The notes below the pieces were generated by a model. That model was not told where the DNA came from, did not search any database, and worked only from the letters and a program-made list of their open reading frames with translations. DNA of 36,657 nucleotides, taken from Clostridia bacterium (lineage in GTDB: Bacteria > Bacillota > Clostridia > Oscillospirales > CAG-272). The DNA lies in assembly GCA_017456905.1 (NCBI GenBank), contig JAFTIL010000028.1, positions 1 to 36,657 of the forward strand. The letters run 5' to 3'. This document shows positions 12,351 through 31,999 of this stretch, piece after piece. Both the position numbers and the translations under genes were made by a program. Position 1 is the stretch's first letter, and each line of letters begins with the position of its first letter.

Positions 12351-12418
12351 GCCCCTTTTTTTGGGGGGAGTGGTTGTCACACAAGTGCAATGCCTCCCCG
12401 TGGCGTGTGACGGGCAAC
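12351..12418 (+). promoter_or_regulatory. Interleaved hairpins before the acetyltransferase gene
   Basis: The gap after the secreted protein can form CCCC/GGGG around seven T (12352-12366), GGGGAG with CTCCCC (12365-12370 with 12394-12399) and GTCACAC with GTGTGAC (12376-12382 with 12405-12411). The last two interleave, so they are either exclusive or a pseudoknot. This could be a partial terminator or attenuator within the operon. No known RNA class was recognised. Confidence 0.3.
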
Positions 12419-12473
12419 ACGGATGAATGCATTCGTGGCTGAATTGCAAAATCGTTACGGCAAGGAAGAATAT

Positions 12474-12992
12474 ATGAATATATATATAAAAGCCATATTG
12501 AAGCGGTATTATAAACTGCTGCACAAATTTAACCCCGAACGATATAAAGCAAAATATCCCAAATTTCTGCGTGATATGGGAATCAATATTTCCGAAAATT
12601 ATTATGCTACAAAGCATGGATTTATTGCGCCCTCCGTTATGTTTGATGCCAATGATTATTCTCTGATCACCATCGGAGATGCAACCACGATTTCCGAGGA
12701 CGTTGTTTTTCTGACGCACGATTATTCCATATCCAAAGGCTTACAGATGATCGACCCCGCGTTAACAGGGCGTTTCTTGAAGCCCATCAGTGTCGGCAGT
12801 CATTCCTTCATAGGCATGAGAGCCATTCTTTTGCCGGGAACCACGTTGGGGGATCACGTGATCGTCGGTGCAGGCGCGGTGGTGAAGGGGAGCTTCCCCG
12901 ACAACGTTGTCATAGCGGGAAATCCTGCCAGAATTATCTGCAAGACCGACGAATGGGCCAAGCAGCATTTTGAAGCGAAGGATTATCAATAA
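12474..12992 (+). CDS. Hexapeptide-repeat acyltransferase (LbH / WcaF-like O-acetyltransferase)
   Basis: The protein is 172 residues from the ATG at 12474, which follows AAGGAAG (12462-12468); an in-frame ATG at 12423 without a good ribosome site would add 17 residues. The second half contains left-handed beta-helix repeats: ITIGDATTISEDVVFLTHDYS with the usual catalytic histidine (H in LTHD), then SVGSHSFIGMRAILLPG and IVGAGAVVKGSFPDNVVIAGNPAR. This is the maltose/galactoside/WcaF-type O-acetyltransferase architecture, using acetyl-CoA to decorate a sugar of the repeat unit. The N-terminal 40 residues are basic and may hold the acceptor. Confidence 0.85.
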   Translation: MNIYIKAILKRYYKLLHKFNPERYKAKYPKFLRDMGINISENYYATKHGFIAPSVMFDANDYSLITIGDATTISEDVVFLTHDYSISKGLQMIDPALTGRFLKPISVGSHSFIGMRAILLPGTTLGDHVIVGAGAVVKGSFPDNVVIAGNPARIICKTDEWAKQHFEAKDYQ

Positions 12993-28262: not shown

Positions 28263-28326
28263 TCACTTTTTGTCAAGATGTTCGGGATTTTTTTGTCAGC
28301 GGAGCTAAATTTTGTATGTCACACCA

Positions 28327-28355
28327 TTGACAGATTCCATATTTTCGGCTATAAT
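28327..28355 (+). promoter_or_regulatory. Perfect-consensus sigma-A promoter of prfC
   Basis: TTGACA (28327-28332), a 17-base spacer and TATAAT (28350-28355) match consensus at all positions. The start near 28362 lies after the TTG at 28312, which rules out that longer start for prfC. Confidence 0.92.
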
Positions 28356-28401
28356 AAATAAGATTGAGTATATAAAATTACAGATACAGAAAGGGCATCC
28401 C

Positions 28402-30027
28402 ATGGCTGACATTCGCAATCATATTGAAAAGCGCAGAACCTTTGCCATCATCTCACACCCCGACGCAGGTAAGACAACCCTCACCGAGAAATTCCTTCTC
28501 TACGGCGGCGCCATCCAATCCGCAGGCGCGGTTAAGGGCAAATCCTCCGACCGCCATGCCACCTCCGACTGGATGGAGATCGAGAAAAAGAGAGGTATCT
28601 CGGTCACCTCTTCCGTCCTTCAGTTTGAATACGAGGGCTACCATATCAACATCCTGGATACCCCCGGCCACCAGGACTTCTCCGAGGATACCTACCGTAC
28701 CCTCATGGCCGCCGACAGCGCGGTGATGGTCATTGATGGTGCCAAGGGTATCGAGCCCCAGACCAGAAAGCTTTTCAAGGTCTGCGCCATGCGGCATATC
28801 CCCATTTTCACCTTCATCAACAAGATGGACCGCGAGACCCGCGACCCCTTCGACCTCATCGACGAGCTGGAGAAGGAGTTCGGCATCGGCACCTACCCTA
28901 TGAACTGGCCCATTGGCTGCGGTGTTGACTTCAAGGGTGTCTACGAGCGTGACCGCCATTCCATCCTGGCCTACGACGAGTTCCACGCAGGCCGTAAGCG
29001 CCTCAAGGGTATCGAATGCGATATCAACGACGTGGAGCAGATGGACAGCCTCATCGGTTCCTATGCCCGCGAGGCCCTGGTGGAGCAGATCGAGCTCTTG
29101 GACGGTGCCTGCTTTGACTTCGATATCGAAAAGGTCCGTTGCGGTAAGCTCTCCCCCGTGTTCTTCGGCTCTGCACTGAACAATTTCGGTGTCGAGGCCT
29201 TCCTGGAGAGATTTTTGCAGATGACCTCTGCCCCCCTGTCCCACATGAGCGTCCATCCTGCGGTGGACGAGGGCACACCTACCGAGATTTCTCCCTTCGA
29301 GGATAATTTCTCGGCCTTCGTGTTCAAGATCCAAGCCAACATGAACAAGGCCCACCGTGACCGTATCGCCTTCATGCGTATTTGCTCTGGTCAGTTTGAG
29401 CGCGGCGAGGAATATTTCCACGTCCAGGCAGGCAGACCTGTCAAGCTGTCCCAACCCCAGCAAATGATGGCCCAAGAACGTGAGATCATCGAGACCGCCT
29501 ATGCGGGCGATATCATCGGTGTCTTCGACCCCGGTATCTTCTCCATCGGCGATACGATTGCCGCCAAGGGTGCCAAGATCCAGTATGCGGGCATTCCTAC
29601 CTTTGCCCCCGAGCATTTTGCCGTGGTGGAACAGATCGACTCCATGAAGCGTAAGCAGTTTGCCAAGGGTATGACCCAGATCGCCCAGGAGGGTGCTATC
29701 CAGATCTTCTTCGAGCCCAACACGGGTATGGAGCGTGTCATCGTTGGCGTGGTGGGTGTGCTTCAGTTCGACGTGCTTCAGTTCCGTATGGAATCCGAGT
29801 ACGGTGTAAAGTATTATAAGCACGATACCCCCCACCAGCTCATTCGTTATATCGACAACGATCCCGAGGAATTGAATCCCGCCTCCCTCCGCCTCATGCA
29901 GAACACCAAATGGGTGCAGGACGTGAAGGGAAGAAATCTGCTCATCTTTGTGGGCGACTACGAGATCGACTGGGCGCTAGACAAGAACCCCGGCCTCAAG
30001 CTGTCGGAATTCCATCAGAATATTTGA
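28402..30027 (+). CDS. prfC: Peptide chain release factor 3
   Basis: This 541-residue translational GTPase removes RF1/RF2 from the ribosome after peptide release. The G domain shows G1 SHPDAGKTT (18-26), G3 DTPGHQDF (about 88-95) and G4 NKMD (about 142-145), followed by the EF-Tu-like beta-barrel and RF3 C-terminal domain with the ending seen in RF3 (WALDKNPGLKLSEF). The length is that of the family. The ATG at 28402 is chosen because the promoter lies between it and an alternative TTG at 28312. Codon use is highly biased, as expected for an expressed gene. It is alone in its transcript. Confidence 0.96.
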   Translation: MADIRNHIEKRRTFAIISHPDAGKTTLTEKFLLYGGAIQSAGAVKGKSSDRHATSDWMEIEKKRGISVTSSVLQFEYEGYHINILDTPGHQDFSEDTYRTLMAADSAVMVIDGAKGIEPQTRKLFKVCAMRHIPIFTFINKMDRETRDPFDLIDELEKEFGIGTYPMNWPIGCGVDFKGVYERDRHSILAYDEFHAGRKRLKGIECDINDVEQMDSLIGSYAREALVEQIELLDGACFDFDIEKVRCGKLSPVFFGSALNNFGVEAFLERFLQMTSAPLSHMSVHPAVDEGTPTEISPFEDNFSAFVFKIQANMNKAHRDRIAFMRICSGQFERGEEYFHVQAGRPVKLSQPQQMMAQEREIIETAYAGDIIGVFDPGIFSIGDTIAAKGAKIQYAGIPTFAPEHFAVVEQIDSMKRKQFAKGMTQIAQEGAIQIFFEPNTGMERVIVGVVGVLQFDVLQFRMESEYGVKYYKHDTPHQLIRYIDNDPEELNPASLRLMQNTKWVQDVKGRNLLIFVGDYEIDWALDKNPGLKLSEFHQNI

Positions 30028-30075: not shown

Positions 30076-31779
30076 TTACATCTTATAAAAGCTATTCCCC
30101 CCGATAAATTCCCTCACCAGGCTGGTGGGCGGGATCTCGTCGTCCACGTCTGCCTCATGTACAAAATTGAGGATCTTAACGATACCTCTCACCTCCTCAT
30201 AACAGTCCTCCTCGGGCTGTACGGCGGTGAGCAAAGGGAAGATGTGCTTTTTTAGCACTGCCAGCTCGTAAAGGGTGGCACTGTTAAAGATCACGTCGGC
30301 GGTCTCGCGGAAGGGATAGATCCATTTTTCCTCGCCCCGACGCACAGAATCCCACATCCCCATGGTCTTTTGTACGGGAGAGTTACGGGTCTCAAAGTCA
30401 CGGACGATGCGGCGGAGCAGCCGCAGATACCCCGTGGGGACGCGGTTGTGATCGTCCAAATTTAAGGGAAGCAGGGGACTGACGAACAGCTTGAAGATCA
30501 TGTTGGGTGCCAGTCCCTCGGGAAGGATCTGAGGATTGAGGGCGTGAAGACCCTCCACGATGATGACCGAATCCTCGTTTAGCTTGAGGAAATGACCGAC
30601 CCATTCCCGCGTTCCTGTTTTGAAATTGAAAACGGGGATCTCAACTTCTTCACCGCGGAGCAGGGCAGAGAGATGGGCTCCAAAAAGCTCTGTGTCAATG
30701 GTGTTGATATGCTCCAGATCCACCGTGCCGTCGGGCTGGGTGGGAATTTCGTCGCGGTTTTTGTAGTAGTCGTCCAGACTCATGAGAATGGGATGTTTGC
30801 CGTGAACGCGGAGCTGTACCGCCAAACGGTTGGCGGAGGTGGTCTTGCCCGATGAACTGGGACCTGCCAGCATCACCGCACGCGCACCTTGCTGACAGAT
30901 CAAGTCCGCTACCTGACCGTACCGCTTTTCGTGCAAAGCCTCATTGACACGGATGAGCTCGCGGATCTTGCCAGTGTCGGTCAACTCGTTGAGGTCAGCT
31001 ACGGTCTCGCAGTGCATCAACTCACCCCAATGCTTACCCTCGCGGTAGACTTGATAATAATTGGGCATATGCTTATAGGTGGCCACCCTGTCGGGATCGG
31101 CGGGGTTGGGGTAGACGAACACAAAACCGTCCTCGGCGGGAAGGATATCCCAGACCTTGAGAAATCCTGTGGAAGGAGCCATTTCACCGTAGTAATAATC
31201 GGCAAAACCATCGTATTCGTAAACGTCAAAGGTGGGAATGGGACGGTAGGCCAAAAGCCTTGCCTTATCATCCTGGCCGTTTTCTACGTAATAGCGGATG
31301 GCCTCCTCGGTGGAGACCCTGCGACGCCTGAGAGGAATGTCCTCGGCTACCAACTCGGTCATACGTGCCTTGAGGGTTTCGGCAGAGAAATCCTCCGCTC
31401 CCGTGACCTTAACGTGGAGGCCTGAGCCCAGGGTGAAGTTCATGACAGCCCGCGCCTCGGGCCACAACTGCCTGATGGCCAGGAATAGGACGAACCTGGC
31501 GGTGCGGGCATAGGTCTCACGTCCTGCGGCGTCCTTGTAGGTCAAGAGACGGACGATACCGCCCGAGGCCGCCATGGCTTTGCGCTTGGACTCCCGTACG
31601 GGGGGGGTGTCCTTTTCACGCAGCGGAATATAATTGAGGGTAAAAACGTCGCCTGCGATCTTGGCGGCGATGGGGTCGGTGGAGAGCTTGCCTGTCATAA
31701 GTCCCATGCCCTTGATCATGTCGAGAAGGGATTGCTCGGGCTTAGCGGTGACCTTTTGGTCATTGATGATGAGGTTCAT
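30076..31779 (-). CDS. Nucleoside kinase (uridine-kinase-like) with N-terminal TGS and synthetase-like domains
   Basis: This 567-residue protein has three parts: a TGS-like ubiquitin-fold segment (1-60), a region resembling the second additional domain of threonyl-tRNA synthetases (about 75-260), and a phosphoribulokinase/uridine kinase domain. The last has the P-loop GPSSSGKTT (306-314), DDYYKNRDE (about 338-346) and a lid region with ETRNSPVQKT. Clostridia and Bacteroidetes carry this fusion, generally named nucleoside kinase or uridine kinase; the precise substrate is not settled by sequence. GAAAGGAGGT lies 5 bases before the start. Its 185-base leader contains a purine riboswitch, which connects it to purine levels. 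Confidence 0.9.
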   Translation of the reverse strand: MNLIINDQKVTAKPEQSLLDMIKGMGLMTGKLSTDPIAAKIAGDVFTLNYIPLREKDTPPVRESKRKAMAASGGIVRLLTYKDAAGRETYARTARFVLFLAIRQLWPEARAVMNFTLGSGLHVKVTGAEDFSAETLKARMTELVAEDIPLRRRRVSTEEAIRYYVENGQDDKARLLAYRPIPTFDVYEYDGFADYYYGEMAPSTGFLKVWDILPAEDGFVFVYPNPADPDRVATYKHMPNYYQVYREGKHWGELMHCETVADLNELTDTGKIRELIRVNEALHEKRYGQVADLICQQGARAVMLAGPSSSGKTTSANRLAVQLRVHGKHPILMSLDDYYKNRDEIPTQPDGTVDLEHINTIDTELFGAHLSALLRGEEVEIPVFNFKTGTREWVGHFLKLNEDSVIIVEGLHALNPQILPEGLAPNMIFKLFVSPLLPLNLDDHNRVPTGYLRLLRRIVRDFETRNSPVQKTMGMWDSVRRGEEKWIYPFRETADVIFNSATLYELAVLKKHIFPLLTAVQPEEDCYEEVRGIVKILNFVHEADVDDEIPPTSLVREFIGGNSFYKM

Positions 31780-31863
31780 ACGCGACCTCCTTTCAAAAAA
31801 AAGGTGATTTTATTAGGATATGCAGAAGGTGATGATAAAATGCAAGAGGATGGGCATATATAC

Positions 31864-31904
31864 AAAAAAGGCTGCCTACAAGTCTTTGTGACCGGTAGAC
31901 AACC
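31864..31904 (-). terminator. Riboswitch-controlled terminator in the nucleoside kinase leader
   Basis: In the RNA, the 10-base arm complementary to 31895-31904 pairs with the arm complementary to 31870-31879 (10 pairs, two G-U) around a 15-base loop, and is followed by six U (31864-31869). The 5' arm consists of the P3 3' strand, J3/1 and the start of P1 of the purine aptamer, so terminator and aptamer cannot form together. Confidence 0.82.
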
Positions 31905-31955
31905 ATTTATGGCGGTTGGTAGAAACGCTTGCCCTTATTGCAAGCCTATACTGGA
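31891..31955 (-). promoter_or_regulatory. Purine riboswitch aptamer (guanine-like, predicted ON switch)
   Basis: The - strand leader folds into the purine aptamer. P1 is 31949-31955 with 31891-31897 (two non-pairs), and P2 is 31940-31945 with 31927-31932. The 7-base loop L2 is AAUAAGG. J2/3 is the exact core GUUUCUACC (31918-31926). P3 is six pairs of standard length and L3 is CCAUAAA, complementary to the GG of L2. In xpt numbering U22, U47, U51 and C74 are kept, which predicts a guanine-type ligand; position 73 is U in place of the usual A. P2 is one pair shorter than in xpt. Adjacent terminator overlap predicts ligand-dependent activation. Confidence 0.85.
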
Positions 31956-31970
31956 TCTCTATTCAACTAT

Positions 31971-31999
31971 ATTATAGCATATCTGATCATATTTGTCAA
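31971..31999 (-). promoter_or_regulatory. Perfect-consensus promoter of the nucleoside kinase
   Basis: On the - strand TTGACA (31994-31999), a 17-base spacer and TATAAT (31971-31976). The start near 31964 leaves a leader of about 185 bases, with the aptamer beginning about ten bases into it. Confidence 0.92.

Follow-up and report, generated by a model that had tools for sequence, protein, structure and literature searches.

A probable transcriptional ON riboswitch with a guanine-I-like pocket ahead of a uridine-kinase-like gene in Clostridia

In a 36,657-nucleotide stretch of DNA from a Clostridia bacterium (contig JAFTIL010000028.1 of assembly GCA_017456905.1; this whole stretch is hereafter called the window), the gene of a uridine-kinase-like protein is very probably controlled by a transcriptional ON riboswitch with a guanine-I-like pocket. 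As read from sequence, the evidence consists of an aptamer, a terminator that is mutually exclusive with it, a conserved arrangement with the kinase gene, and matching changes of nucleotide 73 and of its partner in the terminator. What appears to be new is the combination of such a pocket with an ON platform and a new target. The elements of the locus, all on the minus strand, are as follows:

31971 to 31999, minus strand: sigma-70 promoter, TTGACA-17-TATAAT with TG ahead of the -10 (12 of 12 consensus matches)
31876 to 31973, minus strand: RF00167 purine aptamer match, model positions 1-102, 54 bits; its unpaired 5′ flank overlaps the final three bases of the -10
31949 to 31954, minus strand: P1 5′ strand, CCAGUA, with one internal A/C mismatch (sequence; constrained fold)
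31927 to 31945, minus strand: P2, GCUUGC and GCAAGC, closing L2, AAUAAGG (sequence, model alignment, fold)
31919 to 31926, minus strand: J2/3, GUUUCUAC, without insertion (sequence, model alignment, fold)
31900 to 31918, minus strand: P3, CAACCG and UGGUUG, closing L3, CCAUAAA (sequence, model alignment, fold)
31898 to 31899, minus strand: J3/1, U73 (31899) and C74 (31898) (sequence, model alignment)
31892 to 31897, minus strand: P1 3′ strand, UACCGG (model alignment, fold)
31895 to 31904, minus strand: terminator 5′ arm, GGUUGUCUAC, made up of the last five nucleotides of P3 (3′ strand), both nucleotides of J3/1 and the opening three of P1 (3′ strand)
31870 to 31879, minus strand: terminator 3′ arm, GUAGGCAGCC, with a G opposite U73
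31864 to 31869, minus strand: terminator U tract, six U (sequence)
31786 to 31790, minus strand: Shine-Dalgarno sequence, GGAGG (sequence)
30076 to 31779, minus strand: kinase ORF, 567 aa, with a threonyl-tRNA synthetase-like N-terminal/editing part (residues 76-212) and a PRK/uridine-kinase domain (residues 304-501)

An earlier note on this DNA had read a purine aptamer with C74 directly from the letters and had proposed an Infernal search with RF00167 on the minus strand. When the window was searched with this covariance model, a match well above the gathering score of 37 was returned at 31973-31876 (E 1.2e-6), with a C at 31898 as read. A whole-genome search found this match as the sole purine aptamer of the genome, whose assembly has a listed contamination of 8.8%. 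The aptamer lies directly behind the perfect sigma-70 promoter, the transcription start of the kinase leader being estimated near 31964, and is separated from the kinase ORF by 96 nt; J1/2 reads UAUAG. In what we take to be xpt numbering, C74, U22 and the two J2/3 residues U47 and U51 are kept and no junction carries an insertion, as in guanine-I, whereas the consensus A73 beside the pocket is replaced by U73. Since the match reaches 54 bits in spite of this replacement, and G73 or C73 occurs in other matches of our survey, we kept the name guanine-I-like.

The likeness to guanine-I (xpt type, RF00167) comprises the three-way junction, the L2 and L3 loops, the J2/3 core and C74. In contrast to guanine-I riboswitches, which are commonly OFF, the window has an overlapping terminator of the ON type, U73 and a nucleoside-kinase-like target. 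An adenine riboswitch was rejected because the window has C74 and not U74. The pbuE adenine riboswitch of B. subtilis is an ON switch whose terminator overlaps P1, J3/1 and P3, an arrangement that the window resembles, whereas pbuE carries U74, responds to adenine and controls an efflux pump, as against C74 and a kinase here. The 8-oxoguanine class is also of the ON direction. In PMC9295807, guanine-II, 2′-dG-III and xanthine-II are predicted to be ON switches, and the 8-oxoguanine class is named alongside them. Guanine-II of Paenibacillus resembles the window in its guanine pocket nucleotides and predicted ON direction, but is described there with a single J2-3 insertion plus other xanthine-II-like junction changes and with mostly phosphoribosyltransferase targets, neither of which is found in the window (PMC9295807); it was rejected on the model alignment, which has no junction insertion. 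Also rejected were xanthine-II, given in the same paper as U51G with insertions in J2-3 and J3-1, on a J2/3 of GUUUCUAC, and 2′-dG-III, given there as changed in all three junctions with a C73 predicted to pair with the ligand, on U73 and C74. 2′-dG-III and xanthine-II use the same scaffold; these two and the 8-oxoguanine class have altered pockets, whereas the pocket of the window is ordinary.

The two arms of the terminator, GGUUGUCUAC and GUAGGCAGCC, form 10 consecutive pairs and, together with an inner stem, a hairpin of -20.6 kcal/mol, of which nt 68-77 are common to terminator and aptamer. Complementarity of the post-aptamer stretch to nt 67-77 amounted to -15.2 kcal/mol, exceeding all 200 dinucleotide shuffles (mean -6.3 kcal/mol). 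A simple terminator scan reported no terminator at the window leader, presumably because of the mismatches between outer and inner stem. Because the 5′ arm is built from the P3 3′ strand, J3/1 and the P1 3′ strand, terminator and folded aptamer are predicted to be mutually exclusive, which is ON logic. Folded without constraint, the 100-base element adopts the terminator at -31.5 kcal/mol, as compared to -19.7 kcal/mol with the aptamer enforced, energies that exclude the ligand and the L2-L3 pseudoknot contact; with the terminator fold thus about 12 kcal/mol better, switching must depend on ligand energy and on the co-transcriptional order. The ground-state fold being OFF and the aptamer being made first, it is the bound aptamer that would turn the gene on. 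In the proposed mechanism, RNA polymerase would start near 31964 and transcribe the aptamer first; upon binding of guanine (or hypoxanthine), the three stretches that the terminator needs (the P3 3′ strand, J3/1 and the P1 3′ strand) would be held by P1 and P3, so that the hairpin would be blocked and the kinase gene transcribed. Without ligand, the same three stretches would pair with the downstream arm, and the resulting terminator would stop transcription before the kinase gene. Physiologically, guanine may signal an overflow of nucleosides or purines that has to be salvaged or disposed of.

RF00167 was next searched for in related genomes, most of them fragmented assemblies, yielding matches in 72 of 295 genomes of the family, 50 of 345 of the order and 108 of 341 of the class, with some genomes common to these samples. 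We analysed 153 matches further: 74 from the family, 49 additional ones from the order and 30 from the class, the latter being the best-scoring 30 among the matches listed and hence leaning to strong aptamers. All were parsed except for five in which the J2/3 pattern failed (148/153; G415, G404, G405, G569 and G615, none of them among the 74 family matches). To label the downstream genes, we compared them by BLAST with eight reference proteins taken from the window and the surveyed loci; upon checking one reference each, purF and xpt scored above their NCBIfam cut-offs, and Bmp (PF02608, one of two Bmp references) and the permease (PF00860) above those of Pfam. A terminator was scored as overlapping when its 5′ arm started at or before nt 75; nt 73 was reassigned by rule in five visibly misparsed matches (G206, G126, G082, G157 and G286), a step of which the overlap calls are independent.

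An overlapping terminator was found in all 24 kinase-linked matches analysed, all of them from the family sample, and in 1 of 85 OFF-type matches, i.e., those preceding genes for a Bmp-type binding protein, xpt, purF or a permease (Fisher p 3e-23, a value that ignores kinship). The other OFF-type matches had a later terminator (75, in five of which the arm starts 3-9 nt past nt 73, inside or near P1) or none found (9). A second test, independent of the hairpin finder, agreed with these counts: downstream complementarity to nt 67-77 was reached by at most 10 of 200 shuffles in 19/24 kinase-linked and 6/85 OFF-type matches, five of the kinase-linked matches falling short of this level. The terminator-overlap logic advanced in the earlier note is thus borne out, both by the 10-pair hairpin that shares aptamer strands in the window and by the 24 kinase-linked relatives. 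That the element is instead an ordinary OFF switch with a separate antiterminator is exceedingly improbable. Guanine riboswitches do commonly lower expression (PMC9295807), and the four found in C. difficile are all of the OFF type (PMC11477304); set against this, the 5′ arm of the terminator lies within the aptamer, such that the bound aptamer would exclude the terminator, and the 85 OFF-type relatives are built otherwise in all cases but one. The kinase gene is the first one behind the aptamer in the window and the second in 12/24 kinase-linked matches, where it follows the gene of a membrane protein with weak likeness to YgjV.

Strong orthologs of the kinase (E at most 1e-150) were present in 27 of the 295 family genomes, and the aptamer accompanied the gene in 25 of these 27, which ties what is probably an ON employment of the widespread guanine pocket to a single uncharacterised kinase. 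Twenty-three of the 25 linked genomes are among the 24 kinase-linked matches; the 24th match, in G288, has its kinase cut at a contig end and lies outside the 27. G222 carries the aptamer and the start of the gene on one contig and the remaining kinase on another, and the aptamers of G117 (36.7 bits) and G031 (31.6 bits) are under the gathering score, although their core and overlapping hairpin can be read. In G125, where the ortholog match covers residues 235-566 only, the upstream search gave no RF00167 match. In G155, no aptamer was found in the leader of the kinase ortholog (L215), and a terminator-like hairpin, comprising a J3/1-P1-like stretch and its partner, is still present at about 1200-1240, possibly as a relic of the switch. 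Within the genus of the window, 9 of 12 genomes have a kinase ortholog (at least 60% identity), and all nine have the aptamer: six from the family search and, additionally, G295, G117 and G296, those of G117 and G296 falling slightly short of the gathering score. At six loci of more distant homologs (L004-L009), RF00167 had no match that reached the gathering score in the DNA examined. As a separate observation, G296 has two Gut-1 RNA matches on opposite strands beyond the kinase gene on its 3′ side (L116, 371-451 and 543-608).

It is very improbable that the window holds a decayed element, with the aptamer present and switching lost. The P1 mismatches and the hairpin kept without an aptamer in G155 would agree with decay; the 54-bit match, the intact core and loops, the perfect promoter and the retention of the aptamer at two loci with an 86% identical kinase all argue for a working riboswitch.

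The U73 noted earlier, together with its G-U pair in the terminator, was confirmed in the sequence, and U73 with a pairing partner recurs in relatives. Six of the 24 kinase-linked matches (the window and five others) carry U73 and the remaining 18 carry A73; U73 occurs in 0/85 OFF-type matches. The terminator partner of U73 pairs with it in six cases out of six (G in four, A in two), and A73 faces a U in 14 cases, a non-pairing base in three (G in two, C in one) and an unresolved partner in the last (Fisher p 0.0008 over the 23 resolved rows, ignoring kinship). On a kinase tree of 30 tips, 27 of them labelled, the nt 73 label takes three changes, gains or losses, of which at least two are forced by well-supported branches, and A73 and U73 relatives control the same kinase gene. 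As U73 always pairs with a terminator G or A, it seems to reflect the expression platform and not a new ligand, and the proposal that it signals a new ligand class was rejected. The simplest reading is that terminator pairing drives nt 73, in which case a junction nucleotide change readable as a change of ligand would instead follow the expression platform.

U73 could nevertheless weaken or change ligand binding, and an ON riboswitch for another ligand, with U73 shifting specificity to guanosine or 2′-deoxyguanosine as the kinase's own substrate, was considered. Such a shift would suit a nucleoside-kinase-like target, and changed-ligand variants of the scaffold are known, 2′-dG-III being predicted as an ON switch before a nucleoside hydrolase gene (PMC9295807). 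We consider it unlikely, given that 18/24 kinase-linked aptamers retain A73 although target and platform are the same, that U73 follows the terminator partner, that J2/3 has neither an insertion nor a U51 change, and that the ligand-pairing C73 predicted for 2′-dG-III is absent from the window.

The pocket of the proposed guanine-I-like switch is nearly uniform among relatives. C74 occurs in 24/24 kinase-linked matches and J2/3 has the form GU(U/C)UCUAC in 24/24 (the parser demanded a close form, and no family match was lost to it), the sole change being U48 to C in two matches, presumably position 48 in xpt numbering; these features fit guanine. From the pocket nucleotides, and from the guanine deaminase-like genes behind related aptamers, we infer guanine (or hypoxanthine) as the probable ligand. 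Eight such genes follow C74 aptamers at the order level (L212, L206, L210, L178, L191, L207, L211 and L195; the J3/1 parse of G460 is doubtful), all eight with TIGR02967 as best NCBIfam match at 306-364 bits, under its cut-off of 375.4. Their expression platforms are mixed, with overlap in 2/8 (G331 and G377), an arm 3-5 nt past nt 73 in 3/8 (G537, G573 and G608), a weak late terminator in G402 and none found in G349 and G460; P1 stretches able to cover the Shine-Dalgarno sequence were seen in these leaders by eye only. A guanine-type sensor before a guanine deaminase gene fits an ON logic for disposing of excess guanine and, the platforms being mixed, lends support rather than proof.

Of 15 matches linked to a flavoprotein gene, seven overlap, two have a distal terminator and six have none. 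One of these leaders (G259, L030) has a U73 aptamer and no terminator found, and J3/1 and P1 3′ bases pair with its Shine-Dalgarno region in the fold, such that it would be a translational ON switch. Two matches before the membrane protein gene alone have a distal terminator; in the fold of one of them (G013), bases of the P1 3′ strand are paired with the Shine-Dalgarno region. The membrane protein itself resembles YgjV weakly (PF10688, 18.2 bits, cut-off 23.5). Clear ON platforms thus appear in only some of the aptamers before guanine deaminase-like, flavoprotein and membrane protein genes. In the genome of the window, no guanine deaminase was found at the cut-off (two weak pieces were), and a search for the membrane protein, run without a positive control, gave no match.

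The kinase gene is convergent with prfC (28312-30027, plus strand). Its product matches PF00485 above the cut-off at residues 304-501, a region that also matches the uridine-kinase chains 3asy and 3w8r, and threonyl-tRNA synthetase at residues 76-212. The nucleoside-kinase-like target named in the earlier note is thereby upheld, with the uridine kinase models far below their cut-offs (NF004018, 89.6 bits against 180; TIGR00235, Udk, 83 bits against an equivalog cut-off of 220.3), and we regard the protein as uridine-kinase-like only. Similarity to 3asy and 3w8r, which we take to be T. thermophilus chains, runs across the P-loop and the D-x-Y-Y stretch; the window kinase differs by its extra threonyl-tRNA synthetase-like N-terminal part and by a Gly where the alignment places Tyr (3asy) or His (3w8r), a site that we believe sets the choice between uridine and cytidine. 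This Gly was present in 20/20 aligned riboswitch-linked proteins and also in two homologs without a riboswitch. The substrate, judging by these comparisons, need not be uridine. The suggestion that the switch hints at the real substrate accordingly remains a lead, favoured by the Gly and weakened by its presence in the two riboswitch-free homologs; with the aptamer tied to one uncharacterised kinase, the substrate becomes a testable question.

Under the same switch, the enzyme could be a pyrimidine nucleoside kinase that guanine induces to balance purine and pyrimidine pools. This is possible but rather doubtful: uridine kinases are its best named relatives, yet their cut-offs are missed and the Gly at the Tyr/His site speaks against it, if less so for also occurring in the two homologs without a riboswitch. 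With less than even confidence, we entertain a broader reading in which the lineage turned guanine-I aptamers into a guanine-induced regulon of the kinase, the YgjV-like membrane protein, the flavoprotein and a sister-family guanine deaminase, the kinase handling purines or guanosine and nt 73 having co-evolved repeatedly with the terminator while the ligand stayed unchanged. If true, the kinase would be an enzyme discovered via its switch.

As to precedent, the earlier note had held a guanine-class ON switch on such an enzyme to be unusual. This stands for the target, the open-licence literature having yielded no report of a guanine or purine riboswitch with a uridine or nucleoside kinase target, but not for the direction: with ON guanine-type variants already predicted in Paenibacillus (guanine-II; PMC9295807), ON logic as such has precedent. 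Nor did that literature yield a report of the ordinary guanine core serving in ON switches across a lineage, and passages from two papers on guanine riboswitches and guanine deaminase (PMC7373994 and PMC9430930) do not describe the arrangement seen here.

Elsewhere in the window, an HDV-like ribozyme of the F. prausnitzii family was matched at 12376-12451 on the plus strand (45.8 bits, cut-off 44). The match extends over the opening codons of an ORF of 189 aa (12423-12992) that is acetyltransferase-like by eye and lies among glycosyltransferase-like genes.
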